Source: Humidesulfovibrio mexicanus
Lineage (GTDB): Bacteria; Desulfobacterota; Desulfovibrionia; Desulfovibrionales; Desulfovibrionaceae
Length of the DNA: 64,000 nt
NCBI RefSeq assembly: GCF_900188225.1
Contig: NZ_FZOC01000001.1
Span: forward strand, 496,596 to 560,595
Direction of reading: 5' to 3'
In this document: positions 47,547-64,000 of the stretch, in pieces
How the letters are laid out: each line of letters starts with the position of its first letter
Position numbering within the stretch: position 1 is the first letter of the stretch
Program-made: the position numbers and the translations under genes
Notes under the pieces: model-generated
The model's database searches: none
What the model was told of the DNA's origin: nothing
The model's input: the letters and a program-made list of their open reading frames with translations, nothing else

Positions 47547-48728
47547 ATGAGGATCGTCGTCAACGCCCTGCCCCTGGTCAACGTGCGCACAGGCATCGGG
47601 CGCTATGTGGACATGCTCTACCGCGAACTCGCCCAGCGGCCGGGTATCGAGATCGCCTATTTCGACGGTGCGCGGGTCACGCGGGTTATTCCCGCCTCTC
47701 CAGCCTCCACTGCGGGTTGGTCGCTGCTCACCAAAGCCTTCTGGCTTCTGCCAAGCCCTGTGGCCGTGCTTATCCGGGCCATGCTGCACCATCTGCGTGA
47801 ACGCAGGTTCCTGCGCCTTTGCAAAGGGTTCGACATCTACCACGAAACCGCGCTGCTGCCCTTCCGCACGCCGCCAGGCACCAAGACCGTGCTCACCGTG
47901 CACGACCTGGGGCTGCTGCGCCATCCGCAGTGGCATCCGGCAGAGCGCGCCCGCTTCTTCGACAGGTTTTTCGTCAAGCGCCTGCCACAGGTGGACGGCT
48001 TCCTTGCCGTATCTGAGTTCACGCGCCGCGAGATGGGCGAGTTGCTGGGCATCGATCCGGGGCGGGTTGCAGTGAGCCGACTTGGCATTGACCTGAACAG
48101 CTTCAGCCGTCCAGCCCCTGACCAGATCCGGAGCGTACGGGAGCGATACTCGCTGCCGGAGCGCTATTTCCTGTTCGTGGGCTCCGGCGACCCGAGGAAA
48201 AATGTGCATCTGGTGCGCCAGGCCTTGAAGCTCGCGCCGGAACTGCCGCCATTGGCCATTGCGGGATGGTCCGGCTGGGACAACGCGCCACCAGCCGACG
48301 GGAGGGAGTTGCGCCTGGGCTATGTGGACGATGCCGACCTGCCAGCCCTGTACGCAGGGGCCCTGGCGTTTGTGTATCCCAGCCTCTACGAGGGCTTTGG
48401 CCTCCCCATCCTGGAGGCCATGGCCTGCGGCTGCCCTGTGGTCACGACAGGCTTGGCCAGCTTGCCGGAGGTGGCGGGCGACGCGGCCCTGTATCTGGAC
48501 GATCCGACGAACCCGGCCGCACTTGCCTCCTTGCTGCGGCGCCTAGACGCGGACCCGGACCTGCGCCAGGGGCTGGGAGAGGCAGGACTGGCGCAGGTGA
48601 GCAAATTCCCCTGGCGTGGCACTGCCGACGCAACGATGCGGCTGTTCAACTCGACAATGGACCGGCGCAAGGCCGAGCCTTCGGGCCAGGGGGGCGGAGT
48701 CTCATGCATGACGCGATCGAGCGCCTGA
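47547..48728 (+). CDS. Glycosyltransferase family 4
   Basis: The 393-residue GT-B protein starts MRIVVNALPLVNVRTGIGRYVDML. The acceptor-side domain contains DIYHETALLPFRTPPGTKTVLTVHDLG. The donor-side domain has the family pattern FLFVGSGDPRKNVHLVRQAL and YPSLYEGFGLPILEAMACGCPVVTT, including the catalytic E-x7-E. It probably adds a hexose or mannose-type sugar in a surface glycan. Its 3' end overlaps the next gene by 25 bases. Confidence 0.9.
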   Translation: MRIVVNALPLVNVRTGIGRYVDMLYRELAQRPGIEIAYFDGARVTRVIPASPASTAGWSLLTKAFWLLPSPVAVLIRAMLHHLRERRFLRLCKGFDIYHETALLPFRTPPGTKTVLTVHDLGLLRHPQWHPAERARFFDRFFVKRLPQVDGFLAVSEFTRREMGELLGIDPGRVAVSRLGIDLNSFSRPAPDQIRSVRERYSLPERYFLFVGSGDPRKNVHLVRQALKLAPELPPLAIAGWSGWDNAPPADGRELRLGYVDDADLPALYAGALAFVYPSLYEGFGLPILEAMACGCPVVTTGLASLPEVAGDAALYLDDPTNPAALASLLRRLDADPDLRQGLGEAGLAQVSKFPWRGTADATMRLFNSTMDRRKAEPSGQGGGVSCMTRSSA

Positions 48729-50395
48729 AGGAATACCTGCTGCGCTTCGCGCCGGTGCGCCGCGCCGTGCGCGACAGGGTGCTCCGTTCCGGCCACACGG
48801 ATTGGGGAACGCTGCTTGCCCCGGACGCAGCATACTGGCAAAAGGCCCTGTGCGAGGCCCAGGACGGCCCACATGTACTCATCCCCACCAGCGTGGGATC
48901 TAACATGGCCGCCACCACCCTGGAGGGTACGCTAGCCGCTGCCCTCACCCTGCGCGGCTGCCGCGTGTCGCTGCTGCTATGCGATGGGGTGCTCGATGCC
49001 TGCATGGCCTGCCAGCGGGAGTGGTACAGCGCGTCCTTTTCCACATCCCGGCCGCTTTCGCGTGGTTCCTGCCGCGCCTGCCTCGCACCGGCCTTGGCCA
49101 GCTACCAGGGGCTCGGCCTGTCCGTGTTGCGCTACGGAGAATTCCTTAAAACCAAAGACATAATCCGGGCCAGGGATTTGGCGCGGGACACTCCCCTTGG
49201 AGACATCGCCTCGCTCCACGTAAACGGCGTTGCAGTAGGCGAACACGCCCTGGCCGGGACCCTGCGCTTCTTCGCCCGTGGCGACCTGAACGGCGAGCCT
49301 GGCGGCGAGCCCGTGCTCCGGCAGTTCCTGCAGTCGGCCCTGACCACCTCGGCAGCCATGGAGCGCCTGCTCGTCCGTGAGCGTATTGACGCCGCCGTCT
49401 TCAACCACGGCATCTACGTCCCCCAGGGCATCGTTGGCGAAGCGCTGCGCGCACACGGCGTACCTCAGGTGAACTGGACAGCCACCTACAGACGCCAAAC
49501 CTTCGTCTTCAGCCACGGCGACACCTACCACCGCACCATGCTCACGGACCCTCCATCGCAGTGGCGGAACATGCCCTGGACCGAGACCCGTCAGCGACGG
49601 CTCCTGGACTACCTGGAAAGCAGACGGCACGGCACCGGCGACTGGATATGGTTCTTCGACAGGCCAAACTTCGCGGCGGCCGAGGCCCTGCGCCAGTTAG
49701 GCGCAAATCCCGCCCTGCCCTGCGATGGGCTTCTGACAAGCGTGGTCTGGGATGCCGTGCTGCATTACGAGTCCAACGCATTCCCCAACATGCTGGAGTG
49801 GATCGTGGCCACGGTGCACCATTATGCAGAGCATCCCGATCGCCAACTGGTGATCCGCGTGCACCCGGCCGAAATTCGCGGAACCCTGCCCTCGCGGCAG
49901 CGGGTGGATGTGGAGCTGGCACAACGCCACGGCCCCTTGCCACAAAACGTCATTCTTGTGCCGCCGGAGCATCCGGTAAGCACCTACGCCCTGCTGGAGC
50001 AGTGCCGCCGCATCCTCATCTACAACACCAAAATGGGCGTGGAACTTTCGGCCATGGGCAAACAGGTGGTGGTAGCGGGAGAGGCCTGGATACGCGGCAA
50101 GGGCTTCTCCATTGATGTGGACAGCCCAAAAAGCTACGCCAAAGCGCTCTTGGACGATGCGGTGGACGCGCCCCTGGACGAGGCGCGGCTGCTCCTGGCG
50201 CGAAAGTACGCCTACCACTTCTTTTTTGAGCGCATGGTTGAACTGCCCATGCTCCGCCCAACCGGAGGCGATCCGCAATTCCGGCTGGACATCGATTCCG
50301 TGCGGCGGCTGGCCCCCGGCCAGAACGCCAACCTGGATCTGGTCTGCCAGGGCATAGTGGAAGGCACGCCCATCCTCGCCGCCCCGGACGAATAG
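48704..50395 (+). CDS. Capsule-type GT-B protein, paralogue A
   Basis: The 563-residue protein is closely related to the convergent gene at 50421-52085. Shared segments are GEHALAG, HGIYxPQG, FSHGDTYHxTM, RxHPAExRG, VPPEHxxSTYAL and AGEAWIRGKGFS. A four-cysteine pattern in the N-terminal domain (CDGVLDAC...CRAC) is conserved in both. The C-terminal half resembles capsule polysaccharide biosynthesis (Kdo-transferase-like) proteins. Sugar substrate unknown. It starts inside the GT4 gene, ATG 48704, indicating coupling. Confidence 0.72.
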   Translation: MHDAIERLKEYLLRFAPVRRAVRDRVLRSGHTDWGTLLAPDAAYWQKALCEAQDGPHVLIPTSVGSNMAATTLEGTLAAALTLRGCRVSLLLCDGVLDACMACQREWYSASFSTSRPLSRGSCRACLAPALASYQGLGLSVLRYGEFLKTKDIIRARDLARDTPLGDIASLHVNGVAVGEHALAGTLRFFARGDLNGEPGGEPVLRQFLQSALTTSAAMERLLVRERIDAAVFNHGIYVPQGIVGEALRAHGVPQVNWTATYRRQTFVFSHGDTYHRTMLTDPPSQWRNMPWTETRQRRLLDYLESRRHGTGDWIWFFDRPNFAAAEALRQLGANPALPCDGLLTSVVWDAVLHYESNAFPNMLEWIVATVHHYAEHPDRQLVIRVHPAEIRGTLPSRQRVDVELAQRHGPLPQNVILVPPEHPVSTYALLEQCRRILIYNTKMGVELSAMGKQVVVAGEAWIRGKGFSIDVDSPKSYAKALLDDAVDAPLDEARLLLARKYAYHFFFERMVELPMLRPTGGDPQFRLDIDSVRRLAPGQNANLDLVCQGIVEGTPILAAPDE

Positions 50396-50420: not shown

Positions 50421-52085
50421 TCAGCGCGTTTCTGGCCGCAGTTCATATTCGTCGATAAATGGCCGCCCCGTGGCGATGCCCTCGCAAATGCAATCCAGCC
50501 CCGGCCAGCGGCCCGGCAGCAAATCCGTCAGGCTCTCCAGCTCCACAGAAAAGGTAAACTTCTGCGGAGAGCCGATGAACGGCAGTTCCAGCATTCTGCG
50601 GAAAAAGAAATGGAATGCATATCGTTTTGCCCTGGCCGTCTTTTCCGGGGAGAGGCGGACGCCAAGGGGCAGACTGGCGAGAATGCGGTCGTAATCCTGC
50701 GGGGAACTTGCATCCTGGGAAAAGCCCTTGCCGCGTATCCAGGCCTCTCCGGCCACGACCACGGGAATGCCAGCGGCCGAGAGTTCGATGCCGGTCTTGG
50801 TGTTGAAGATGATGACGCTGTCGCAGCGATCCATGAGCGCATAGGTGCTGGCTTGATGCTCCGGCGGCACAACGAAGACGTTGGGTGGCAGTTGGGGCGT
50901 CATGCGGCGGATCTCCTCGGCCATCTTCTGGCGTGAAGGCACCATGCCGCGCACCTCCGCCGGGTGGATGCGGATGAGCAGTTGCAGATCCGGGCGGCTG
51001 CGAAAAGCCTCCACCGTGTGCCGTACCCAGGCAAGCATACAGGGAAAAGCATTGGCTTTGTAATGTAACTGGGCGTCCCACATGACGCTGGTGAGCAGGC
51101 CGACAACCGGCCGCGACCAATCAAGTCCGAACTCCCTGGCGAAGGCATCCATGTCGTTTTCCGGCCGCTCATGGAACCAAATCCAGTCGGCGCTGCCGCA
51201 CCGCCTGCTGTCCAGGTAGTCCATAGTCAGACGCTCAAGGCGCTCCGTCCAGGGGATGGCGTCCCAGGCTTCAGCAGGCTCGCTGACCATGGTGTGGTGG
51301 TAGGTGTCGCCGTGGCTGAAGATGAATGTGTTTTTCCGGTACGAGGGGTTCCAGTTCACCACCCGCAATCCCCTGGTGCGGCAGGATTCGCCGATGACCC
51401 CTTGCGGCGAATAGATTCCATGGTGGAATATGGCCGCGTCATAGGATTCTTTGTCCAGCAGGTCGTCCATGACTGCGGCCACGCGCAGGGAGGACTCCAG
51501 AAAGCGGCGCAGAATAGCCTCGCCACAGGGTTCGCCGGACAAGTCGCCACGGCCATAGTAGCGCAGCGCCCCGGCCAGGGCGTGCTCACCTATGGCCAGC
51601 TCACCTGGACAATACCCGGGAATGTCTTCCACCGGAAGCGTATTCGCCACGGACGCCGCCCGCGCCCTGGCCGCATCGGAAAGGTGCTGGCCGAACCAGC
51701 GTACCGGCAGGCCCAAAGGCTCGAACAGGCGCTTGCCCTCCTGCACGCAGGACGGGCAGCGCAGGGTGGCGGGCATGGCCAGAAGCGCCTCTGGCTCGCA
51801 GCCGTGCAGCTTGGTCATCTGGCAGCACGGCAGAGCCGCGTCGCAGAGCAAAAACTCCACCCGCGCGCCCCGGAGGGTCAAAGCCACGGCCAGGGAGCGT
51901 TCCACCACGCAGGCGTGGTTGTAGTTGGACATGCTGGTGGCGATGAGGTAGCGCGGCCCGCTTGCCGTGCGCAGAGCCTTTGCCCAGAGGTCCATGTCTC
52001 TGGCGAGAACCTGCAGGAGTGAATCGTGCGTATTGGCAGGGATTCGGCAAGGCTTCCGGAAGCGCCTCAGGATCGATTCAATCAC
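50421..52085 (-). CDS. Capsule-type GT-B protein, paralogue B
   Basis: The 554-residue protein is a paralogue of 48704-50395, encoded convergently 25 bases away. The start is the GTG at 52085, chosen because AAGGAG lies 5 bases upstream; the ATG further up has no SD. The N-terminal region carries CDAALPCC...CPSC, equivalent to paralogue A, possibly binding a metal. The C-terminal capsule-biosynthesis motif VPPEHQASTYAL and GVELSA-type loop (TGIELSAAGIPVVVAGEAWIRG) are preserved. It would be the last gene of the minus-strand glycan operon. Confidence 0.72.
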   Translation of the reverse strand: MIESILRRFRKPCRIPANTHDSLLQVLARDMDLWAKALRTASGPRYLIATSMSNYNHACVVERSLAVALTLRGARVEFLLCDAALPCCQMTKLHGCEPEALLAMPATLRCPSCVQEGKRLFEPLGLPVRWFGQHLSDAARARAASVANTLPVEDIPGYCPGELAIGEHALAGALRYYGRGDLSGEPCGEAILRRFLESSLRVAAVMDDLLDKESYDAAIFHHGIYSPQGVIGESCRTRGLRVVNWNPSYRKNTFIFSHGDTYHHTMVSEPAEAWDAIPWTERLERLTMDYLDSRRCGSADWIWFHERPENDMDAFAREFGLDWSRPVVGLLTSVMWDAQLHYKANAFPCMLAWVRHTVEAFRSRPDLQLLIRIHPAEVRGMVPSRQKMAEEIRRMTPQLPPNVFVVPPEHQASTYALMDRCDSVIIFNTKTGIELSAAGIPVVVAGEAWIRGKGFSQDASSPQDYDRILASLPLGVRLSPEKTARAKRYAFHFFFRRMLELPFIGSPQKFTFSVELESLTDLLPGRWPGLDCICEGIATGRPFIDEYELRPETR

Positions 52086-52172
52086 ATGCACTCCTTGCCC
52101 ATGCAGTGTGGTCGCAGGGGCCAACGCCCGACAAAGCAGGCCGGGCGGGTTCGCCGGGCAGGGCCTGTCGCG

Positions 52173-54434
52173 TCATTTCCGCCCCAGGGAGGTCAGCGTT
52201 CCGATGAAGCTCTGCACGATGCACTGCACAATGTTCGGATTGATGTGGTGCGTATTCCCATCGCCGCCAAAGGTGGGGGCGGTGTTGGCTGCCAGCCACT
52301 TGGCGATCTCGAAGGAGGGCCAATAGTGCAGATTCGGCAGGCCGAGCTTCGCTATCTCGTGGCAGGCCACGCGCAGAACGGACTTGGACACGCAGTCCTC
52401 CACAACGGCCGAGGGGGAGCCAAAGGAGGCCGTGAGCGGCACCGGGGAAAGCGTGTACACAATAGTCAGCTCCGGCTTGGCGCGCTGGAGCATCTCTACG
52501 ATGTCCACAAAGTTGCGGACGTTCTCCTCCACGCTGCTCATGCGGGAAGAGAGCTCCCCGCTGCGGATGCCCTGAAGCAGGGCCTTGCCTCTGCGAAGCG
52601 TGGGGAGGTCCGTATCCTTCTCGAATACGCCGGGCGCGACGCCAAGGGTGTAGACCACGCAGCCCGCTTCCCGGATGAGCTGCCGGAACCGTTCGAATTG
52701 AACGTTGTATGCATGGACGATTTGCTCGCCGAATCCCGAATCCGGCATCTCCAGCAGAAAACGCATCACATGCCTGTTCATCAGTGTCGTGTTGATGTCC
52801 TCGGAGAACGACAGCCACTCGGAGCGAACCCCCAGCTCGGCAAGGGCGGCGCACACGCTGCGCGCAAAGCAGGATCCCAGGGTGACGACCTTCGTGTTCT
52901 TGTGGATGAAGGGCGTGATCTTCTCATACCCAGGCAGCACATACTCCCTGACCAGGGATGGCAGATCCTCGAACATGGACTGGTAGCGCGGGTAGCGGGC
53001 AACGGATTGGCCAAGGCCGCCCTTTGCAAGAAGCGACTTGTCCACACGTTTCTCAAGCTCGCGCATTTCATCGTTGCCCGTTACATTCAAGGAATACAGG
53101 CGCGCCAAGAGATTCCTTACCTCTGCCTCCTTGCCCTGCTCCGCAAGATTCAGCACCAGATTCTTCATTGTGACCACATCTTCGGGCTCGAGGGAAAGAG
53201 CCATCCGGAGGTGGCGTTCGCCTTCAACCAGCTTGCCGAACCGGGTCATGAGCAGCCCGGCGCCCTGGTGCGCCTTGCGATTCTTCGGCGCAATGTCCAA
53301 GCATTCCAGATAAACGCCGAGCGCCTCTTGCCCCCTGTTCTGTCGACGGAGCAGCCGGGCATAATGGATGAGCAGCGGAAGGGATTTGGGATCTTTCTCC
53401 AAGGCTCCGACAATTGTCTCAAGGGTGTGGTCCGTCACCGTGTTGATCTTGGGCGTAGCGGGCGGAGGCGGCGCGACAGTCGTTTCCTGGTCCGGCCTTG
53501 GAGCTTTCGCCTGCGGTCGGGCCTTGACACGGTAGGTCCAGCCATAGCGCTCCATCAGGGCGTTGAGCTCGGCAGGGTCCTGCTTCGAGTACGGAGTGCT
53601 GGACCAGCCGGTCTCGAAATGCAGGGTAACCCCAAGGCGTTGGGCGTACTCGGAGGCTGCCTCAATCTCCGCCATGGTATTGTTGTGTTCAAAAAGTATA
53701 TATTTCCAGACGATGGAGATGCCGCTGCCTGCGGCTTTCTTGGCCGCAACCAGGCGCTCCATGAACTTGAAGGCGTTCTGGATGTCGCCTCCCTTGCGGT
53801 ACCGGGAATACGACTCCTGGCAGGACCCATCGATGCCGAGCCGGATGATGTCCAGACCCGATGCCACGAGGGCTTCGGCATCGGCCTTGGGGTACACGGC
53901 ATTGGTGTCGATCTTGAGCAGAGAGTCGGGAAACACCGACTTCGTGTAGGAGATCATCCGCGACAAGTCAGGATTCATCAACGGCTCTCCGAGGCCGACC
54001 AGAATGACGGTCTGAAGCCTGATCCCCTTCTCCTTGAGGCCATCCACAAGGGCGATGTATTCATTATACGGATAATAGAGCCGCTCCGGCTTCGGAATGA
54101 TCCACTTCCCTGTGCGCCAGGCCGTGCCCGGGCAGGTTTCGCACTTGAGGTTGCAGGCGGCCGATGGCTCAAGATGCAGGACCACCGAATCGGGGTACAA
54201 GGAGATCGGCTTCTCAATCTTCCTCCACAGCTTGCCGCACTTCTGGCACTCAGGCCAGGGCAAAACCCCCTTCGCCATCTCGGAGCGTATCCTGACGAAC
54301 GCATCCGAATGGTACAAGGAAGCGAAATCCGCCCCGTTGGTCTTGCCGAAAATCCGCGTCAACCCGCCGGAACACCAGCAATGCAGGTTCCCCGTTGCCG
54401 AGATGTATGCTCCGGACATCATTGGGCAGTGCAT
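52173..54434 (-). CDS. Radical SAM - TPR - GSCFA fusion protein
   Basis: The 753-residue protein has an N-terminal SPASM-like Cys region (LHCWCSGGL...CQKCGKLW), then a radical SAM core with Cys94-x3-Cys98-x2-Cys101 (CNLKCETC) and LVGLGEPLMNPDLS. A proline-rich linker follows, then TPR-like repeats (KSLPLLIHYARLLRRQNRGQEALGVYLECL). A GSCFA domain starting near Gly520 (VVTLGSCFARSVCAALAE) ends it. GSCFA domains are found in surface-polysaccharide loci. The SPASM-like segment preceding rather than following the core is unusual. It lies 8 bases after the next gene's stop, in one operon. Confidence 0.82.
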   Translation of the reverse strand: MHCPMMSGAYISATGNLHCWCSGGLTRIFGKTNGADFASLYHSDAFVRIRSEMAKGVLPWPECQKCGKLWRKIEKPISLYPDSVVLHLEPSAACNLKCETCPGTAWRTGKWIIPKPERLYYPYNEYIALVDGLKEKGIRLQTVILVGLGEPLMNPDLSRMISYTKSVFPDSLLKIDTNAVYPKADAEALVASGLDIIRLGIDGSCQESYSRYRKGGDIQNAFKFMERLVAAKKAAGSGISIVWKYILFEHNNTMAEIEAASEYAQRLGVTLHFETGWSSTPYSKQDPAELNALMERYGWTYRVKARPQAKAPRPDQETTVAPPPPATPKINTVTDHTLETIVGALEKDPKSLPLLIHYARLLRRQNRGQEALGVYLECLDIAPKNRKAHQGAGLLMTRFGKLVEGERHLRMALSLEPEDVVTMKNLVLNLAEQGKEAEVRNLLARLYSLNVTGNDEMRELEKRVDKSLLAKGGLGQSVARYPRYQSMFEDLPSLVREYVLPGYEKITPFIHKNTKVVTLGSCFARSVCAALAELGVRSEWLSFSEDINTTLMNRHVMRFLLEMPDSGFGEQIVHAYNVQFERFRQLIREAGCVVYTLGVAPGVFEKDTDLPTLRRGKALLQGIRSGELSSRMSSVEENVRNFVDIVEMLQRAKPELTIVYTLSPVPLTASFGSPSAVVEDCVSKSVLRVACHEIAKLGLPNLHYWPSFEIAKWLAANTAPTFGGDGNTHHINPNIVQCIVQSFIGTLTSLGRK

Positions 54435-54442
54435 CTTCCACC

Positions 54443-56326
54443 TCAGGTTTTATCGCGGGCAAGAAGTTCAGGCCTGTACGCCGTGATCCAACACCCCAGC
54501 GGCGTGGTCTCTGTCCTGTAATGCTTGATGATCGCAAATCCAGCCTTCATAAGCAGCCTATCCATATCCCACAAGGGCAGCATCAAGTAGCCCAACGTCC
54601 GTTTGTCATACGAGCGCAGTGTCATTTGCGGCACCATGGGCGGCAGCCCCGCCACGGCCCGCAGACGAAGCTCCAGGGTGTAATGGCGTGAGGCCGTGCT
54701 CCAGAATAAATTGGCGCAGCGAGAGCGCAGGGAATTCTCCTCCCAGGGCCAGGGGATGAAGAAGAAGCGAAACGCCCCCCCCGGGCGCAGCACCCGAAAC
54801 GCTTCGGAGAGGACGCTTCCCAATTCGTCCAGGGTGGCGAGGCCGCACACTTCCTGCTCGGAGAAGACCAAATCCGCCCAGCCGGAATCGCATGAAATCT
54901 CGCCATGGCCGCCCATGGCGCGGAACTCTGCCGCAGGGCCGAAGGCCTGGCTGGCGATCCGCAAAAAGGTCTGGGAGCGTTCCACGCCCATGACCCGCCA
55001 TCCGGCCTGGGCCGCCGCATAAACAACCCCGCCAAGGCCGCAGCCATAGTGGATCATGCGGCGCTCCCCTGGCTGCCCGTTAAAACGCCGGGTCGCAGGC
55101 TCCACAAAGACCTCCCAGGCGCGCTGTCCGTCCGCCACAATCTGGGTCAGGTACGGCGGCAGATCCCCAGACGCGCCCTTGTCCTCCGGCTCGAACAGGG
55201 GGCTGGCCGTTGCGCCATCCATCACGGCAACAGAAGCAACCCGGCCAAGGGGCAGGGCTTCGGCAAAAACGCCATCCATGGCTCGAAAGGCCTCGGCCCG
55301 GAGTTCCTCGTTCGCGCGCGAGGCCGGGGGCGGGGTCCTGGCCGCCTTGAGCGCGGCGCGAAAAGCCCCGGAGTCATCGGCCGCAACCACCAGACAGTGC
55401 GGCAGCACCGCTTCAGGCAACCGCCTGGCCACATCGGGCGTCACCATCACCCAGCATCCGGCTTCAACGGCTTCAAGTATCTTGGTCTTGAAGCCCATGC
55501 CCAGGTCGGAGAGGATGGACACTATGCGGGCCTGTGCCAGGATGGGCATGGGGCTTGGAAGCCTGCCTGTAGAAACGACACGATTAAGGCGTCCCAGGAT
55601 ATTTTTAGGCCTGAGGACCCCGGTGACACAGAAAACCCATGAATCGGCCTCGTGATCCGGCAGGGATTCGACCAGTTCGATGGTGTTGCGCGCCGAATCG
55701 TACAGCAAGGGCGTTATGAGGCCGCCGGTGCCCATGAAGCAGACGAAAAGGTCGGACTTTGCCTGTCGAGGCAGTTGGCTGCCGAACTTCTCGGGCAGGT
55801 AGTAGGGTACGCAGACCGCCGGGCAAGCCCCCTGGAGCCGGGACCAGTAGTGCGTGGCCTCCCATTGGCAGATGGGCAGCATGACATCCGCCAGCTGGGT
55901 GCAGCGCACATCCAGCTGATAGCGTCGCAGGGCCTCGCCGCAGCCCGGGAACCTTTCTGGAGCCATAGAATTAGGTTTGTCGCGAAGAATGCGTCCCATG
56001 CCCCGGTAGTAGTCGACAAAATGCGGGAGGTTTGCGTTGTGCGCCCGGACCACGCGCCGGATGTGCGGGTGCTCCTCCTTCAGGTAGGCCAGACTCTCCA
56101 CAAAGGTCTCGTACTCGAACACCACATACTTGCAGCGGCTCAAATCCGCGCCCTTCAGATGCTCAAGGGCGTCGGCATCCGCCCAGCGCCTGCACAGGTA
56201 CTCCGAAACCTTGATGCCGCGCGAGGCAAAGAACTCCGTCCGGCAGGCCACGTCCTTGGTGCTGCCCACATAGGCCTTGCCCGCGTTGGACACGCTGTCC
56301 GGGACGATGTGGATGATGGTGCTCAT
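54443..56326 (-). CDS. Glycosyltransferase - methyltransferase fusion
   Basis: The 627-residue protein has a GT-B-like first half (MSTIIHIVPDSVSNAGKAYVGSTKDV...VVRAHNANLPHFVDYYRGMG) with a donor-type loop SDLGMGFKTKILEAVEAGCWVMVTPDVA. From about residue 400 a SAM-dependent methyltransferase follows, with RMIHYGCGLGGVVYAAAQAGWRVMGVERSQ and FRVLRPGGAFRFFFIPW. It could transfer a sugar and then methylate it. It starts 7 bases after the carbamoyltransferase stop. Confidence 0.75.
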   Translation of the reverse strand: MSTIIHIVPDSVSNAGKAYVGSTKDVACRTEFFASRGIKVSEYLCRRWADADALEHLKGADLSRCKYVVFEYETFVESLAYLKEEHPHIRRVVRAHNANLPHFVDYYRGMGRILRDKPNSMAPERFPGCGEALRRYQLDVRCTQLADVMLPICQWEATHYWSRLQGACPAVCVPYYLPEKFGSQLPRQAKSDLFVCFMGTGGLITPLLYDSARNTIELVESLPDHEADSWVFCVTGVLRPKNILGRLNRVVSTGRLPSPMPILAQARIVSILSDLGMGFKTKILEAVEAGCWVMVTPDVARRLPEAVLPHCLVVAADDSGAFRAALKAARTPPPASRANEELRAEAFRAMDGVFAEALPLGRVASVAVMDGATASPLFEPEDKGASGDLPPYLTQIVADGQRAWEVFVEPATRRFNGQPGERRMIHYGCGLGGVVYAAAQAGWRVMGVERSQTFLRIASQAFGPAAEFRAMGGHGEISCDSGWADLVFSEQEVCGLATLDELGSVLSEAFRVLRPGGAFRFFFIPWPWEENSLRSRCANLFWSTASRHYTLELRLRAVAGLPPMVPQMTLRSYDKRTLGYLMLPLWDMDRLLMKAGFAIIKHYRTETTPLGCWITAYRPELLARDKT

Positions 56327-58158: not shown

Positions 58159-59583
58159 CTACCGTCTGTGTTCCCTTCGGATCGTCTTCAACATCGCCGT
58201 GAAACAGTCATCAAGCTCCAAATCAGAAGCGTCCAGCAGCGGCCTGTGCGTGGTCACCACATTCACCCCCTTGATCGTCCGTATTGGATCGCTCGTTGCC
58301 GGGTACAGGCCCGGCTCAGCAGGTGCGGCATGGCGCAACACCTCCAACACCACCGGGAGGGCCATGCAGGGGGCGAGAATGGGCCTCCTGGCGCGGTGGA
58401 AGGCCTTGATCACCGAAGAGACCTCCGGTGTCACGAGCCGATCGGCCTTGGGGCGCATGGCAAGATAGCGCAACACCTCCACGCCTCCAGGCACAAAAAG
58501 CCCGGCATAGGCGCGAGGTCGCAGACTCGGCGTCAGGCCCGTCTCCACCGCGTACCCCGAGTCCGCCAGCGAGGAAAGCGCAGCAGACGTCTGGGCAGAA
58601 CCGCTCGCTCCGGGACCCACGAGGCAAAAAAACGGCTGTGCCCTCCCTGTCGGGGAGCAGCGGCCAGGAAGCGCACCGACCCAGGCCCTGCGCAAAAGCT
58701 CCGCAATCTTGCCCACCTGCAACGCCGCAGCCTGAAGAACAAGCACCGGATGCGGCTTGGCATCCCTGCCCTTGAATACCGCTTTGGGCAGACGCCAGAA
58801 CAGATTCTTCGCACACTCAAGAACGTACCCTGGCGCGGAGCCAAGACGCTCGTTCTTAAGATTCACCAGGGAGACGCCACTGAAAAAGCCCCTCTTGATG
58901 AAGTAGGCAAGCCGCATCTTCTCGGACGGTACGTGATGATACACGACAAGGTCCAGACTGTAAAAGACCTTCTGTTCGCTCGAGGACGTCGACGCCCTGT
59001 AGGCCAGCAGCACGGCCTTTTCCTCTCCCAGGCGGGTTTTCTTGCCCACCATCCCGAATTTCGGGGAAAAACCGCCCAGGGATTCCAGCAGGGGCTTGCG
59101 GATGATGAAATTCGATCCCGAAATGGAACACTTGCGAGAAAAACCGCTTTTCCTTGCACTTTGCCGAATTTCAAACTCGTCGCGGAACCACGATGGCCGC
59201 TTCGTGGTATAATAGGGATATACCGGTCCCCCCATGAGGTCTGGCGCACGCTTACCCAGTAAGTGCAACAAGAGACGCACGTAATTCTTCCCAGGCTTGC
59301 CGTCGTCGTCGATGTAGCAGAGGTATTCCCCCCTGGCCTCGGCTGCGCCCCGGTTACGGGCGTTGGAGAGCCCCTGCTTGGGCTCATGCACATAGCGAAG
59401 CCACGGATGCTGCGCAGCAAAATCCCGAACAAACGCCTCGGTGCCGTCGGCGCTGTTGTTGTCTACAACAATCACCTCAACCCGGTCTTCGAAGCCATCC
59501 ATCTGCAGGGCGAAATCCCTCAAGCACAGCTTCAAAAGATAGCGTCTGTTGAACGTGCAGACAATGATCGACACTCTGTGCAT
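58159..59583 (-). CDS. Glycosyltransferase family 2 with C-terminal extension
   Basis: The 474-residue protein starts MHRVSIIVCTFNRRYLLKLCLRDFA (ATG 59583, with AAGAGG upstream). The GT2 domain has VIVVDNNSADGTEAFV, GLSNARNRGAAEA and the DxD-type CYIDDDGKP. About residues 320-474 form a further domain (LSSLADSGYAVETGLTPSLRPRAYAGLFVPG...) that looks like a separate GT-B or hydrolase-like fold. The gene ends 4 bases before the carbamoyltransferase start. Confidence 0.82.
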   Translation of the reverse strand: MHRVSIIVCTFNRRYLLKLCLRDFALQMDGFEDRVEVIVVDNNSADGTEAFVRDFAAQHPWLRYVHEPKQGLSNARNRGAAEARGEYLCYIDDDGKPGKNYVRLLLHLLGKRAPDLMGGPVYPYYTTKRPSWFRDEFEIRQSARKSGFSRKCSISGSNFIIRKPLLESLGGFSPKFGMVGKKTRLGEEKAVLLAYRASTSSSEQKVFYSLDLVVYHHVPSEKMRLAYFIKRGFFSGVSLVNLKNERLGSAPGYVLECAKNLFWRLPKAVFKGRDAKPHPVLVLQAAALQVGKIAELLRRAWVGALPGRCSPTGRAQPFFCLVGPGASGSAQTSAALSSLADSGYAVETGLTPSLRPRAYAGLFVPGGVEVLRYLAMRPKADRLVTPEVSSVIKAFHRARRPILAPCMALPVVLEVLRHAAPAEPGLYPATSDPIRTIKGVNVVTTHRPLLDASDLELDDCFTAMLKTIRREHRR

Positions 59584-59931
59584 CAAGAAACCTCTTGTAA
59601 AAATATGTTTCTCCGGTTTTTTCAGCACAAAAACCAGCCCCGCCGTTCGACCAAAGAGAAAACCTTACGCTCCGCGTGCTGTCGTTTCAATCGCCCCCAT
59701 TCCGCCCTGTGGCGCAGGCCCTCGCCCCCGCAATCCCTTCCCTCCTGACCAATTTGTACCGCGCCGCCATGTACAATGCTCACCTGGTTCCAGGCCACCA
59801 TGACAGGGAGTCGGCTCCAGCCGTGGAAATTCATTCTGTGCACGCAGCCTTTCGCTTCGCTCGTTCACGCTCATGGACTTATTCAAAGCGCAACACAATA
59901 TGTTCGTTCCAAGCAGAATACACCATATATA
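59584..59931. other. Non-coding gap between two glycosyltransferase genes
   Basis: The 348-base stretch has no supportable gene. It is less GC-rich than its surroundings near both ends. Near 59617-59638 the minus strand has a weak AT-rich hairpin (GGTTTTT/AAAAACC). No convincing promoter was found, but this is the only long break in the minus-strand glycan operon and a likely place for one. A plus-strand reading frame across it continues into the mirror of the heptad repeats and is not a gene. Confidence 0.5.
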
Positions 59932-61194
59932 CTAATCATGATTTGCACGCAGACTTTCATGCTTTTCACGCAAAAGATCATGTTTTGTACGCAATTTTTC
60001 GTGCTTTACGCGTAAATTTTCATGCTTTGCACGAAGGCTATTATGCTTTACGCGCAAGTTTTCATACTTTTCACGCACATTATCATGCTGCACATGCAAA
60101 TTATCATAATCTTCATGCAGTCTTTCATACTTTTCACGTATTCTTTCGTGCTTTCTATGGAGACTGGCGCACCTTTCGTACAATTTCTCAAGCTTGACCT
60201 GGCACAGCCGCAACACGGTCAGGTCTTCCAGAAACGCCTCGACCAACGCCAGTGCGCGGCCGCTGCAAAACTCCTCGGCGGACGCCTGCCCCATTGCCTC
60301 AAGCTCACGCCTTATCTCTTCGCTGTACTTCGCAACCATACGCTTCAGATACAGCACGGCATGGGCGACCCTGCCTGCGGCATCCTCTTCACCAACAGGA
60401 AGCGAACCCACGCCCAAGGCACGAAAAAAGAACATTGCGTGGGAAATGTGGGGCGCTGACAGCGGCTCGGCCTCGTCGGCAAAGAGGGTGCGCAGTTGCC
60501 GTGCCACCACTTTTTCATGGCCGCCGCTCATCTTGAAGACGCGCCGAAAGCGTCTGGCACCGCCCACGTGCCGCACAATTCCAGCCTGGGCCACGCGCGA
60601 AACCAGGAGCGTGTCTGGCTGAATTTCCTGCGGCAGAAACCCTGCCTCGCGCAGGGCCTGGTACCGGAACAAGCCGTAGACCGCGTCACCCGCGCCAAAG
60701 GTCTCCAGGGTCACCTGACGCAGCGCCCGGGCCGGGCTGGAGGCGGAAGTGTCCAGGCAGGGCGGCGGCGTCTCGATCCTGCGTCCATCCCGGCCTATAT
60801 GAACGGTGCCCGCGTGGGCCAGCACGGTTCCAGGATCGCTCTCCAGCGCCGCCACAAGCTGTTCCAGCCAGTCCTTGGCCACCCAGTCATGGTCGGAGTA
60901 CCAAGCGAAGTAACGCGGCGGCTCGGGATCGGCGGCCAATTCAGCCACGGTGTTCCAGGCCTGAATTAACCCCGCGCGCTTGGAGTTTCTATGCAATAAG
61001 ATGCGCGGATCGGCGGCAGCGTAGGCTAAAAGTTGGTTGTAGGTTCCATCGCTTGAGCCGTCGTCAAGGACGACAACCCGAAAGTCTCGGTAGGTCTGCC
61101 CCAAGAGGGCGTCCAGGGCCTGGCGCAGATGCGCCGCACCGTTGTATGCGGGAAGCCCGATGCAGACCGTGGCCGCAACAAGTGAAGAACGCAT
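59932..61194 (-). CDS. Glycosyltransferase family 2 with heptad-repeat coiled-coil tail
   Basis: The 420-residue protein has a GT2 domain (VCIGLPAYNGAAHLRQALDALLGQTYRDFRVVVLDDGSSDGTY...WYSDHDWVAKDWL) and a middle helical region. Residues 345-420 are eleven consecutive seven-residue units of the form L-R-x-K-H-E-x, for example LRVKHNS LRAKHEN LRVKHEK. This makes a long parallel coiled coil or charged helix with His/Lys/Glu at repeating positions. It lies 7 bases downstream of the large gene start and is probably co-transcribed. Confidence 0.88.
   Translation of the reverse strand: MRSSLVAATVCIGLPAYNGAAHLRQALDALLGQTYRDFRVVVLDDGSSDGTYNQLLAYAAADPRILLHRNSKRAGLIQAWNTVAELAADPEPPRYFAWYSDHDWVAKDWLEQLVAALESDPGTVLAHAGTVHIGRDGRRIETPPPCLDTSASSPARALRQVTLETFGAGDAVYGLFRYQALREAGFLPQEIQPDTLLVSRVAQAGIVRHVGGARRFRRVFKMSGGHEKVVARQLRTLFADEAEPLSAPHISHAMFFFRALGVGSLPVGEEDAAGRVAHAVLYLKRMVAKYSEEIRRELEAMGQASAEEFCSGRALALVEAFLEDLTVLRLCQVKLEKLYERCASLHRKHERIREKYERLHEDYDNLHVQHDNVREKYENLRVKHNSLRAKHENLRVKHEKLRTKHDLLREKHESLRANHD
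59935..60162. repeat. Degenerate 21-bp tandem repeats encoding heptads
   Basis: About eleven copies of a 21-base unit run through this region, each coding for one heptad on the minus strand. The plus strand reads as repeats of the type TTTTCATGCTTTGCACG. Base composition is much more AT-rich than the rest of the gene, suggesting expansion by slippage or unequal exchange. Copy number may vary between strains. Confidence 0.85.
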
Positions 61195-61200
61195 ACCCGA

Positions 61201-64000
61201 CTATCCGTCCTTTGTGCCGAAGTAGACCTGGGCTCTCGGCTTCTTGTCGTTGAATGGAACCACTCTATCAACAGCCACTCCGCCCTGGCGCAGCAAGGCA
61301 CAGAGCCTGTCATGGCCAATGTACACGCCGCTCCAAGTGCTGTTCCTGTGCACGGAGCCTCTGGATGAACCAGGGGGGTAGTGCACCGAGTGGTCTTCAT
61401 GGTTCTCCGTACGCCCCAGGACACCCCCTGCCGCAAGGGTGTAATCCTCACAGTTGACCTGCAGCACAAGTATTCCGCCGGGGGCCAACAGCCGACACAT
61501 CTCGGACACGGCCTTGTCGAAGGCGGAGAGCCTGTCGATATGCTGCACCACAGCATAGGAATACACAATCCTTGCACAGCCGTCCTCCAGTACTGCATCG
61601 CCTACAGGTGAGAGGCAGGCCAGCCGTGCGACCCCCGGCACCAGTCTGCGGCAATGCTCCAGCATGGTCTGCGAAATGTCTATGCCCCCGCAGGCGATGC
61701 CCCGGTCCACTAGCGCCTTGAGAATGCGTCCGGCCCCGCAGCCGTACTCCAGCACCAGGCCCTTTTCAGGCGCATGGGCAAGGGAGGGCAGGACCCACTT
61801 CTCCGCAAGCTTGCGCCCCTTTTCAAAAAACAGGGCCAGGTGCTGCTCGGAAAAATTATCCGGCCCGGCATCCGCCATTTCCTCCATGGTCATGACGGCA
61901 TAGAGCGGATTCTCCCTGGCCTTCTCCTCCCAGGAATTTACAGACCAATGCTTTGGAACCTTCACCTTGTGCCCCGCCCCCTTGCCGCCGTTGGCGGCCT
62001 TTGCGTCCTTGCCTTCACCAGCCTGACCAGCCCCCTTGCGTCGTAATACAAGGACGCCTGCGGTGGCCTGATCCATAGGAGACCGACCGGCTCGTGTGGC
62101 GAACGCCTCGTTGCCCAAAACCTCGAATTCGCCGCAGGCAAGAAAATGCCGACGGATGTCGGCCACGTTCCGGATGGCGTTGCGCACCCCGGCAAAGCCG
62201 GGCTGGCCCAAGACGGACAGGTCGAAATCGAGGCAGGCGAAGGACAGGGCGAAGATTCCACCAGGCTTGAGGCAGTGCGCCACCCCGGCCAGGAGACTGT
62301 GCTTCGCCGCCACGTCAAGGCGCTCCAGTCCAAAAATCGAGCAGGCGACATCGAAGCCCCCTGCCGGATGGTCAAGGACGGTTTCGTCCTTATGCGCTGC
62401 GCGGAGATTCTGCTCCGAAGAGCCCAAAGACTCGGTCACCATCTCCACACCCAGGGCGCCGAAGTGCTTGCGCAATAGCTCGTCGCACTCTCCGAGGGCC
62501 AGCAGGCGCGTCCCGGACCGCAACTGCGGCCCCAGCGCGGCGAGCACACTGCACACGGCCCACAAATCCCTGGGCGGGACAGGTTGCGCCCCTGCCGCGC
62601 CAACCGAAGCGGCCCGGACCAGGTTCTTGCCAAGCCGTCTCCACAGGCCGCTCAGTGGCGCGGCCTGTGCTTCCTGGCCGCTCTGCGCCCAATGCGCCAC
62701 GCGATACTCGGCCAGAGGAGGGAACACCGCAGCAAGGCCATCCCAAGACTCGTCCAACAGGTCCTCTGCGCGCATAAGGCGGTTGAATTCAGGCTTGGTG
62801 CTGGGCTGCGGCGCATGAGCGCCCGCAAGGCTCCCGCGCCACGCCGCGACCCAACTGTCGACGTCGGAAGGCTGGAACACGTCCGCCTCGTGCGTCTGGG
62901 CGTTGAAGAAAATTTTGGTCTCGAGAGGGAGAGGGCCGTGGCCCTTCGGCGAGCCGCGCCGGACGCGGGCCATATCGCGCATCTCCGCAAGCAGCCCGGC
63001 CAAGTTGGCTATGGCGTCGCCGCCGGACATGAGCTCCGTTTCGGCCCAGCGGTGCAGCGGGCTCGCACCGCCCTGACCACCGCCCTCCAAACAGGCGGAA
63101 ACGAACCGTGCCGGGTCGGCGATTTTCGGAGCGAGATCGTACCAGGCGCAGTGAAGCCCGCAGGGGAAAGCAACGGGCTCAAACATGAACAGGTCCTTCC
63201 CGGCCACGGCCGCCTCAATAAGACTGGTGCTGTACGACGACACCACCGTGTCTGCGGCCAACACCCATTCCCGCACCGAGCCCTCCTTGATGAAATGCAG
63301 CCGAGGAGCGGCAGTGCCCACCTGCTCGGAAAAGAAGTCGAACATGACCTCTGAATTAACGGCGGGCCGTGTGCGGAACACCACCTCCACGTCCGGCCGC
63401 CTGGCCAGTTCGTTGCAGCACTCGAGAAGGAGCTTGAGTGAATGGCGCGAAAAGTCGCGCAGTTGGGCGATCTCGTCCGCATCGCCGCCAAGACGCGAAA
63501 AAAGCTTCACCTTACCGCCGATAAATGCCCAACGGTAGTTTTCGGGCACGAAGACCCACCGCTTCGCCGGATCCAGGCCGTACAGGGCAGCCAAAGACTC
63601 CCGCGTGCGGTAGTGGCGACGGTAGGGATCGCGGTACAGTTGGTAGGCGGGCTGTCCGTTGACGCGGATGTTCTCGGAAGGAACGCCGAAACCGGTCAAA
63701 TAGTCCTCATAGAAACGGCCCCAGGCGTGATGGACGACCTTTGTTCTGGCGAACTCGTCCGAAGGTCGCTTGATCTGCCAGTGGGCCTTGTAGTGCAGTT
63801 GCTCCCAGGCAAGATTGAAGTGCAAGGCATCGGGCCACCTAGCGACATAGTCCTCGACCGCAAGGGCCCCTGCGGCGAAATAGAAGAAGGGATGCGCCAC
63901 CACCAGCGGGTCAAACTCCCGAAGGGACTGGTGCGCGTGCAAATAGATGTTGCGAATTTCGACGGATAGTCCGTGCCGATCCTCGGCGAGGACCTTCACC
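61201..64000 (-). CDS. Large surface-glycan protein with two methyltransferase domains (partial)
   Basis: At least 933 residues are present; the frame is open to the window edge and the real start lies beyond it. The first 330 residues resemble capsule/WcbA-like proteins, with VPENYRWAFIGGKVKLF and VVSSYSTSLIEAAVAGKDLFMFEP. From about 480 a methyltransferase-like domain follows (LLALGECDELLRKHFG; FDVACSIFGLERLDVAAK). A linker of Lys/Gly/Ala residues leads to a classic SAM methyltransferase at about 735 (LVLEYGCGAGRILKALVDRGI, YSYAVVQHIDRL, LAPGGILVLQVN). It likely modifies surface glycans. Confidence 0.78.
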   Translation of the reverse strand, partial: VKVLAEDRHGLSVEIRNIYLHAHQSLREFDPLVVAHPFFYFAAGALAVEDYVARWPDALHFNLAWEQLHYKAHWQIKRPSDEFARTKVVHHAWGRFYEDYLTGFGVPSENIRVNGQPAYQLYRDPYRRHYRTRESLAALYGLDPAKRWVFVPENYRWAFIGGKVKLFSRLGGDADEIAQLRDFSRHSLKLLLECCNELARRPDVEVVFRTRPAVNSEVMFDFFSEQVGTAAPRLHFIKEGSVREWVLAADTVVSSYSTSLIEAAVAGKDLFMFEPVAFPCGLHCAWYDLAPKIADPARFVSACLEGGGQGGASPLHRWAETELMSGGDAIANLAGLLAEMRDMARVRRGSPKGHGPLPLETKIFFNAQTHEADVFQPSDVDSWVAAWRGSLAGAHAPQPSTKPEFNRLMRAEDLLDESWDGLAAVFPPLAEYRVAHWAQSGQEAQAAPLSGLWRRLGKNLVRAASVGAAGAQPVPPRDLWAVCSVLAALGPQLRSGTRLLALGECDELLRKHFGALGVEMVTESLGSSEQNLRAAHKDETVLDHPAGGFDVACSIFGLERLDVAAKHSLLAGVAHCLKPGGIFALSFACLDFDLSVLGQPGFAGVRNAIRNVADIRRHFLACGEFEVLGNEAFATRAGRSPMDQATAGVLVLRRKGAGQAGEGKDAKAANGGKGAGHKVKVPKHWSVNSWEEKARENPLYAVMTMEEMADAGPDNFSEQHLALFFEKGRKLAEKWVLPSLAHAPEKGLVLEYGCGAGRILKALVDRGIACGGIDISQTMLEHCRRLVPGVARLACLSPVGDAVLEDGCARIVYSYAVVQHIDRLSAFDKAVSEMCRLLAPGGILVLQVNCEDYTLAAGGVLGRTENHEDHSVHYPPGSSRGSVHRNSTWSGVYIGHDRLCALLRQGGVAVDRVVPFNDKKPRAQVYFGTKDG

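Follow-up and report, generated by a model that had tools for sequence, protein, structure and literature searches.

The question raised by this locus is what a single protein that joins a radical SAM enzyme to TPR repeats and a GSCFA domain might do among genes for a surface polysaccharide. The gene was found in the 64 000 nt stretch of DNA analysed here (the window), from a bacterium of the sulfate-reducer type. Its frame (Table 1) begins with an ATG preceded by a purine-rich GAGGTGGAAG and contains no internal stop codons, and it forms part of a tight gene run on the minus strand, with gaps of 8 nt upstream and 48 nt downstream. The maximum 19-residue hydropathy of the protein was 1.49, with no clear membrane stretch. 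Neighbouring genes were called using a custom codon scorer, and the edges of the unnamed neighbours are approximate. Those listed in Table 1 place the fusion gene in a surface-polysaccharide gene run, which continues past the end of the window with genes for a transketolase, a cytidylyltransferase and NeuB. The NeuB gene is 23 kb and the CTP_transf_3 gene 18 kb from the fusion gene, on the same contig and strand, so that NeuB and a CMP-sugar cytidylyltransferase, the pair by which a nonulosonic-acid locus was recognised, are found in one gene run. A preliminary description of this DNA had put the gene inside a surface-polysaccharide locus and suggested that it may modify a glycan or a peptide. 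The neighbours and the NeuB-type context support the first point and make a glycan-pathway enzyme likely, whereas peptide modification found no support.

Table 1. Position of the fusion gene, its parts and its neighbours in the window
Feature	Position	Strand	Basis or remark
Fusion CDS	52173..54434	-	753 aa: N-terminal twitch, radical SAM core, Pro-rich linker, TPR, GSCFA
N-terminal twitch (half-SPASM), residues 1-70	54225..54434	-	Profile-profile match, shuffles, invariant Cys
Radical SAM core, about residues 84-275	53610..54185	-	Pfam PF04055, AlphaFold model, fold matches
CxxxCxxC radical-SAM cluster motif, C94/C98/C101	54132..54155	-	Sequence and alignment
Proline-rich linker, residues 301-334	53433..53534	-	Sequence
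TPR repeats, about residues 335-450	53085..53432	-	Pfam TPR_14, phmmer, fold matches
GSCFA domain, residues 515-743	52206..52892	-	Pfam; SGNH-type fold in model
GSCFA motif, residues 520-524	52863..52877	-	Invariant in 10 aligned rows
Capsule_synth-type protein, 567 aa, downstream of fusion	50421..52124	-	Pfam
Glycosyltransferase-1-like and methyltransferase, 627 aa, upstream of fusion	54443..56326	-	Pfam; 8-nt gap
Carbamoyltransferase (Carbam_trans_N and _C), 606 aa	56334..58154	-	Pfam
Family 2 glycosyltransferase	58159..59628	-	Pfam
Family 2 glycosyltransferase, coiled-coil-like C-terminus	59932..61194	-	Pfam
Surface-carbohydrate-like protein and methyltransferase	61201..63999	-	Cut by window end; 954 aa in longer stretch

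Pfam matches above the cut-offs were obtained for all three of the parts, radical SAM, TPR and GSCFA, that had been read as fused. The radical SAM match (PF04055, residues 89–232) had an E value of 4.5e-9 and 37.1 bits against a cut-off of 29.5. The two halves of the protein were modelled separately using AlphaFold (residues 1–305 and 331–753). In the model of the first half (pLDDT 81.3) the core resembled MoaA, BlsE, DesII and NifB at Z scores of about 15, and BlsE and DesII are sugar-modifying enzymes. A partial TIM barrel was recognised in the comparison with MoaA (Z 15.6, 215 aligned residues, rmsd 3.3). In 26 of the best 50 VIA-align matches to this model, including MoaA, SuiB and SkfB, the alignment started at residue 68 or beyond, and these matches therefore say little about the position of the twitch domain in space.

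The preliminary description had also pointed to SPASM-like cysteines (HCWC ... CxxC) ahead of the core. In the Pfam search PF04055 and PF08885 were above their cut-offs, but no match to the SPASM model PF13186 was listed for the fusion protein up to an E value of 1, and the likeness was therefore tested by profile comparison using hhalign. A profile of the N-terminus (15 rows) matched a profile of C-terminal SPASM domains (7 rows) over 62 columns with a Prob of 94.6, an E value of 7.3e-8 and a score of 42.1, while the highest score among 200 column shuffles was 18.0 and that of a reversed control was 13.4, confirming the likeness. C3, C19, C63 and C66 were invariant in all 15 rows of the N-terminal alignment and C21 was kept in 14. 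Judged by these profiles, the N-terminal segment is half a SPASM domain, of the twitch type, placed ahead of the core. Twitch domains are defined by three or four conserved cysteines for one auxiliary cluster in the accessible text of PMC10452713, and the fusion protein has four, C3, C19, C63 and C66, which are the predicted ligands of an auxiliary [4Fe-4S] cluster, with C21 nearby.

In the accessible text of PMC9012708, SPASM and twitch domains are given as C-terminal extensions, whereas here the twitch (residues 1–70) precedes the core (about 84–275). The same text describes BtrN, a twitch radical SAM dehydrogenase of an aminocyclitol, as having one auxiliary cluster with four cysteine ligands. 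By that description the four predicted ligands of the fusion protein suggest an analogy of chemistry with BtrN. A twitch ahead of the core has a named precedent in the NCBIfam family NF033640 (N_Twi_rSAM, twitch domain-containing radical SAM protein). The fusion protein differs from this family in its additional TPR and GSCFA parts, and scored 27.7 bits against the cut-off of 170. Among ten relatives scanned, NF033640 was listed for four, at 28.7–39.0 bits against the same cut-off. The family profile matched the cores of the window protein and its relatives at positions of about 98–224, and there was a weak match of positions 22–71 to the N-terminus of the relative L028 (residues 18–74).

The best-scoring named models for the core were TIGR04317 (W_rSAM_matur, 62.7 bits) and TIGR04311 (62.0 bits), both putative metalloenzyme maturases, and no sugar enzyme family was among them. 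TIGR04317 was also the first family for all ten standalone relatives scanned. The radical half could accordingly be a protein- or peptide-modifying enzyme or a metalloenzyme maturase, with the TPR and GSCFA parts recruiting its protein target; the polysaccharide locus would then be incidental, or the target would be a glycosyltransferase or a glycoprotein. Proteins are the usual binding targets of TPRs, and GSCFA proteins are also found in NRPS/PKS gene clusters, according to the accessible portions of PMC12828459 and PMC9503745. However, both scores are far under the cut-offs (380 bits for TIGR04317 and 400 for TIGR04311) and come from the core alone. Pfam was run on 19 ORFs next to or close by the fusion (the fusion itself counted as one) and showed no partner metalloenzyme, and the recurring neighbours are sugar enzymes. 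We consider this explanation unlikely.

In the second half of the protein, Pfam TPR_14 was found at residues 354–392 (E 1.3e-5, 25.8 bits, cut-off 23.5). Using phmmer the TPR region matched designed TPR proteins, and in the model it matched TPR folds at Z scores of 12–14. The GSCFA match (PF08885, SGNH clan, residues 515–743) was well above the cut-off of 25, at 85.8 bits with an E value of 4.9e-24, and the motif is conserved. GSCF was also present in three further GSCFA proteins, as GSCFG in two and GSCFT in one. In its modelled fold (residues 331–753, pLDDT 71.4) this half resembled the SGNH esterase Ape1 of Campylobacter jejuni (8gld; Z 13.1, 203 residues, rmsd 3.5, 7% identity) and a GDSL-like lipase (4q9a; Z 12.3), giving an SGNH-type fold in a model with a pLDDT of only 71. 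These two SGNH folds were listed by VIA-align, while the best 50 matches listed by Foldseek were to TPR-containing proteins only.

SGNH enzymes have the sequence GDS at block I. A profile alignment of the GSCFA domain with two GDSL proteins (Prob 1.2) did not extend to block I; when the motifs are compared, GSC is read where these two proteins have GDS. This difference, which also separates the domain from Ape1, suggests that a cysteine rather than a serine is the likely nucleophile, and from the position of the motif Cys522 is proposed. No GSCFA protein with a known activity is named in the accessible part of a 2022 review (PMC9487903).

The GSCFA domain of the fusion protein is divergent, reaching 75 bits over profile positions 78–237 in the genome search, and is without a stretch found in nine other aligned GSCFA domains. 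As TPRs are scaffolds, the GSCFA and TPR parts together might have no catalytic role and serve for binding or scaffolding, keeping the radical SAM enzyme attached to the machinery of glycan assembly. Yet 12 of the 13 positions common to the nine other GSCFA domains are kept in the fusion, including those of GSCFA, T-x-G, T-x-SP and K. The sole deviation, Trp for Phe at residue 705, is shared with a Burkholderia relative, in which the same short form of the domain exists as a standalone protein. Together with the match of the model to SGNH esterases, this makes a purely scaffolding role improbable, and the GSCFA domain looks enzymatic from its esterase-like modelled fold and its retained positions. 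The same evidence goes against the product-binding role that the preliminary description gave to GSCFA, a view close to the scaffold explanation.

The combination of domains, initially described as unfamiliar, proved to be rare. The fusion to GSCFA was seen at only one of the 17 N-twitch loci found (one cut and one broken), the one in the window. Likewise, two genome samples contained 31 GSCFA places, and a radical SAM part was seen at that of the window but at none of the other 30. As had been supposed, the C-terminus is a GSCFA domain, and no second case of the domain order turned up in the samples. When genome contigs were searched with the single protein no relative was confirmed, and relatives were found using an alignment as the query. 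The order-level search covered 348 genomes, eight of them with an N-twitch gene; the class-level search also covered 348 and found the same eight, which were counted once. There was no tblastn match in phages to the N-terminal or the GSCFA part, and 15 loci matched in viral contigs, none from before residue 43. A 1216-aa open frame in one genome (G057) was examined as a second fusion and rejected: the family N-terminus begins at an ATG inside the frame, and the stretch before this start is filled by PIG-L and radical SAM/SPASM genes in other frames.

Both halves were found as standalone proteins. The N-twitch radical SAM genes encode 357 to 468 aa where complete. The TPR-then-GSCFA order is shared by Burkholderia stagnalis WP_347469830 (480 aa, 28% identity over residues 364–744, tblastn E 1e-34), the best GSCFA match in the plasmid collection; its TPR part is seen from the BLAST alignment, and Pfam lists only GSCFA. 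In a congener the two halves are separate genes 18 kb apart in one locus, which also holds NeuB, cytidylyltransferases and further radical SAM/SPASM genes.

A fusion found as a single instance might have come about by evolutionary accident, or the gene might be decaying, with no joint function of the two halves and possibly with one half inactive. In a 14-row tree the N-twitch of the window had the longest end branch (3.4 changes per column), and was drawn outside a supported six-row clade with NeuB context, though the tree tool marked the place of this long row as unsure. The function of that clade may therefore not transfer to the window protein. On the other side, the 753-codon frame is intact, with a ribosome-binding-like sequence and a place in a tight gene run, the three SAM-cluster and four twitch cysteines are all present, as are the GEP and GSCFA motifs, and the two genes share one locus in the congener. 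Accident or decay is in our view unlikely.

The standalone relatives of both halves were associated with NeuB loci. Six of the nine genomes searched, including that of the window, had NeuB no further than 25 kb from the N-twitch gene; of the other three, two had contigs of only 7.1 and 4.0 kb and one had NeuB only on another contig. In the seven genomes that could be tested, no more than 1 to 6% of the sequence is as close as this to a NeuB gene. Finding six of seven would have a probability of 3e-8 for independent loci, but these loci are not independent. CTP_transf_3 was within 20 kb of the N-twitch gene in seven of eight genomes searched. For GSCFA, NeuB seed matches were found in the 18-kb regions around the genes of G130, G327 and G240, and at the G012 locus, where the GSCFA gene and a DegT aminotransferase gene share 4 bp. 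Within the order, GSCFA was present in three of the seven non-window genomes with an N-twitch, compared with 13 of 347 overall (hypergeometric p 0.0013, ignoring relatedness). The NeuB seed had no match in the 3–19 kb around 11 of the 15 non-window GSCFA genes of the order, and among the loci scanned, the NeuB-locus seeds had none in the four from Planctomycetota, in L084, which is unclassified, or in the single one on a Rhodobacterales plasmid. The window locus itself gave no further radical SAM gene in the seed search. Carbamoyltransferases, beside which the preliminary description had proposed to look for the same fusion, were not a recurring neighbour: a homologue of the neighbouring carbamoyltransferase (E 1e-6 or better) was present in only one of 16 N-twitch locus sets scanned, that of the window itself.

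The presence of relatives of both halves as separate genes in sugar-acid loci suggests that the fusion is probably a two-part glycan-decorating enzyme. Our tentative proposal, held with somewhat less than even confidence, is a cytosolic bifunctional enzyme that tailors a surface glycan whose nonulosonic (sialic-acid-like) sugar would be supplied by the NeuB and cytidylyltransferase genes of the gene run. The radical SAM half would carry two [4Fe-4S] clusters, one binding SAM (C94, C98, C101) and one auxiliary (C3, C19, C63, C66). A 5'-deoxyadenosyl radical would take a hydrogen from a sugar carbon, and the four-cysteine auxiliary cluster could take up the electron left over, for a net two-electron oxidation to a ketone, as proposed for BtrN; alternatively, the outcome could be a step toward epimerisation. 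A flexible linker and a TPR superhelix, which may dock a partner enzyme or the acceptor, join the radical half to the SGNH-fold GSCFA domain, which may transfer an acyl group to, or remove one from, the same glycan or its precursor, probably with Cys522 as the nucleophile.

A broader and more doubtful extension is that an as yet unnamed radical SAM family with a permuted N-terminal twitch tailors nonulosonic acids in loci with multiple radical SAM genes, and is here joined to a GSCFA acyltransferase with a cysteine nucleophile, combining radical oxidation or epimerisation with acylation on one polypeptide. If such a reading is right, anaerobes build their surface nonulosonic acids using radical chemistry for which full-text searches of the open-access literature found no report. 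With the GSCFA domain named without a known activity in the 2022 review and the N-twitch family below the NCBIfam cut-offs, the fusion makes the roles of both testable. The position of its auxiliary-cluster domain, before the core, also makes a case for asking what the position of an auxiliary cluster means.

The open reading frame carrying the fusion is separated by 8 nt from the preceding gene, and GAGGTGGAAG stands directly ahead of its ATG. Radical_SAM, TPR and GSCFA were each matched by at least one Pfam model above cut-off, in agreement with the preliminary description, which had proposed that all three lie in one frame.

Features of the fusion gene and its product
Feature	Position	Strand	Source
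Fusion CDS, 753 aa	52173–54434	minus	
Cysteines ahead of the core	residues 3, 19, 21, 63, 66		
Radical_SAM domain	residues 89–232		Pfam
CxxxCxxC of the core	C94, C98, C101		
Proline-rich linker	residues 301–334		
TPR	about residues 344–392		Pfam
GSCFA domain	residues 515–743		Pfam

The Pfam SPASM model was unmatched in the fusion protein. A profile of 15 N-termini of the N-twitch family was compared using hhalign with a profile of seven Pfam-recognised C-terminal SPASM domains from proteins of related loci, and the two aligned over 62 columns (Prob 94.6, E 7.3e-8, score 42.1). The best score among 200 column-shuffled controls was 18.0, and the reversed control scored 13.4. C3, C19, C63 and C66 were invariant in all 15 rows, while C21 was replaced by aspartate in one (G433, from the phylum sample). 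The SPASM-like cysteines noticed earlier ahead of the core are thus borne out. Passages on SPASM/twitch enzymes in two papers (PMC10452713, PMC9012708) give a four-ligand, single-cluster pattern as that of the twitch and place the domain C-terminal to the core; the N-twitch family has the same four-cysteine pattern but before the core. This layout already exists in NF033640 (NCBIfam), although by its scores the N-twitch family falls outside that model. The fusion reached 27.7 bits against a cut-off of 170, the four of 10 relatives for which NF033640 was listed reached 28.7–39.0 bits, and the twitch of one relative aligned weakly with the N-terminal part of the profile. An AlphaFold model of residues 1–305 (15 rows, pLDDT 81.3) matched MoaA, NifB, BlsE, DesII and others at Z about 15 (VIA-align). 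The N-terminal cysteines probably bind a [4Fe-4S] cluster.

In the model of residues 331–753 (10 rows, pLDDT 71.4), VIA-align gave TPR matches with Z 12–14 and aligned the GSCFA part with two enzymes of the SGNH type: Ape1 at Z 13.1 over 203 residues and a GDSL-like lipase at Z 12.3 over 186 residues, both with rmsd 3.5. By motif position, the G-S-C of the fusion sits where SGNH enzymes have G-D-S, making Cys522 a candidate nucleophile. A profile alignment of GSCFA with two GDSL proteins stopped short of block I. Twelve columns were invariant in the 10-row GSCFA alignment, and one more position is Phe in the nine other rows and Trp705 in the fusion; a Burkholderia stagnalis protein also has Trp there. 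The GSCFA domain may well be catalytic.

The fusion is rare in the samples. N-twitch genes were found in eight of 348 genomes of the order, in a search repeated with a better profile, and in two of 395 phylum-sample genomes, one being that of the window. In a scan of named genomes with one peptide pattern, 80 of 104 relatives were kept and 10 of the 80 covered the N-terminus, four of them on contigs that match order genomes in length and were taken as identical; six loci were new (four Planctomycetota, one Omnitrophota, one unclassified). At least two loci were on Rhodobacterales plasmids among the matches listed (15 of 28 records). Among the at least 17 distinct N-twitch loci, window included, a TPR-GSCFA fusion was seen only in the window. 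The G036 gene runs off its contig, so that its fusion status cannot be judged, and the gene in G296 lies in two frames of 226 and 200 aa (L067:8884-10145); apart from this broken gene, the locus resembles its relatives. The remaining genes end at 357–468 aa, too short for GSCFA after the core. A Brachyspira plasmid match to residues 1–269, in two pieces across several genes, lies outside this count.

GSCFA was found at 16 places in 14 of the 348 order genomes and at 16 places in 15 of the 395 phylum-sample genomes, the window's included in each. The other 30 have open frames of 108–596 aa. The GSCF motif, located in 13 of the 15 other order places, lies within about the first 115 residues, too near the start for a radical SAM part to precede it, and none was seen in the five of these 15 frames given to Pfam. 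The B. stagnalis protein is a standalone TPR-like and GSCFA protein of 480 aa, with 28% identity to residues 364–744 of the fusion. As both halves exist as separate genes, two existing gene types have been joined via the proline-rich linker. Leaving out the window's genome, 7 of the 347 order genomes have an N-twitch gene, 13 have GSCFA and three carry the two together (p 0.0013 in a hypergeometric test that takes no account of relatedness). G433, the sole other N-twitch genome of the phylum sample, has GSCFA on a different contig.

The surface-polysaccharide setting proposed earlier is supported, as the minus-strand run around the fusion holds Capsule_synth, glycosyltransferase/methyltransferase, carbamoyltransferase and two GT2 genes (Pfam). 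Beyond the window the run continues with sulfotransferase/methyltransferase, ABC ATPase, transketolase and cytidylyltransferase genes, then aldehyde dehydrogenase, epimerase, methyltransferase, SDR and NeuB. The transketolase (928 aa, L171:9186-11972) is a fusion with an NKWYS capsular-polysaccharide domain at its C-terminus, and the sulfotransferase-methyltransferase fusion lies at L171:5317-6912. A plus-strand frame converging on the run (window 48266-50395) shares 46% identity over 542 aa with the Capsule_synth protein at 50421-52124, which suggests, from sequence comparison, a duplicated pair. In a second region of the window's genome (G000:C6:117040-139866), NeuB is accompanied by several cytidylyltransferases and by a radical SAM/SPASM gene (L002).

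Standalone relatives of both halves are associated with NeuB loci. Six of nine N-twitch genomes searched had NeuB on the contig of the N-twitch gene and no more than 25 kb from it, at distances of 1.5 to 23 kb, with the window at the upper end; two contigs were too short to test (7.1 and 4.0 kb) and one genome had NeuB on another contig only. At most 1 to 6% of each of the seven testable genomes lies within 25 kb of NeuB. Six of seven near NeuB corresponds to p 3e-8 under independence, and the true significance is weaker because the loci are related. CTP_transf_3 was within 20 kb in seven of eight genomes searched (G036 left out). A seed-protein scan of 16 locus sets, which included one of the two Rhodobacterales plasmids, found at least two further radical SAM/SPASM-like proteins in eight, with SPASM confirmed by Pfam for those tested in G012, G240, G057, G301 and L079. 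No such further protein turned up in the window, in G433, in any of the four Planctomycetota, in the unclassified locus or in the Rhodobacterales plasmid scanned. In G012 (the window's genus), G130 and G327, the GSCFA gene stands alongside NeuB, a cytidylyltransferase and at least two radical SAM/SPASM genes, and in G012 it is separate from the N-twitch gene, about 18 kb away in one NeuB-type locus. G240, from the window's family, has GSCFA with one radical SAM/SPASM gene and NeuB at the stretch edge.

The fusion enzyme probably acts in surface-glycan synthesis. Against the glycan-tailoring reading, multi-radical-SAM or NeuB context was absent from half of the scanned N-twitch sets and from 11 of 15 non-window order GSCFA genes (no NeuB seed match in regions of 3–19 kb), and the neighbouring carbamoyltransferase did not recur in the N-twitch locus sets scanned. 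A 14-row tree gave the N-twitch domain of the fusion its longest end branch and drew it outside the supported NeuB-context clade, a placing that is unsure for such long rows. The best named models for the fusion's core, putative metalloenzyme maturases, also count against that reading; one such model ranked first in all 10 relatives scanned, as for the fusion. Oxidation or epimerisation of a sugar by the radical half is a doubtful proposal. A twitch cluster, a surface-glycan role, a catalytic GSCFA domain and sugar radical chemistry together make the best single account, offered tentatively.

No paper on GSCFA together with radical SAM, or joining radical SAM to nonulosonic or legionaminic acid, was found in open-access full text. 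Among the matches listed from the open-access NeuB/pseudaminic literature, the subject was not seen in titles or abstract starts, which does not prove its absence. Multi-radical SAM/SPASM loci were seen at L027/L028 (G012:C19), L187 (G327), L186 (G130), L064 (G240), L032 (G036), L065, L066, L067 and L079, most with added NeuB, cytidylyltransferase, PIG-L deacetylase, GNAT or DegT genes. These may represent a branch of nonulosonic-acid synthesis that uses radical chemistry and is as yet undescribed, broader than the fusion. One radical SAM/SPASM protein has a fused C-terminal methyltransferase (810 aa, L033:6905-9334). In L043:1-2370, an amine-oxidase-like FAD domain is fused to radical SAM/SPASM, and five loci from other genomes of genus g26 (L044, L045, L046, L048, L049) have open frames of similar length, 808–860 aa.
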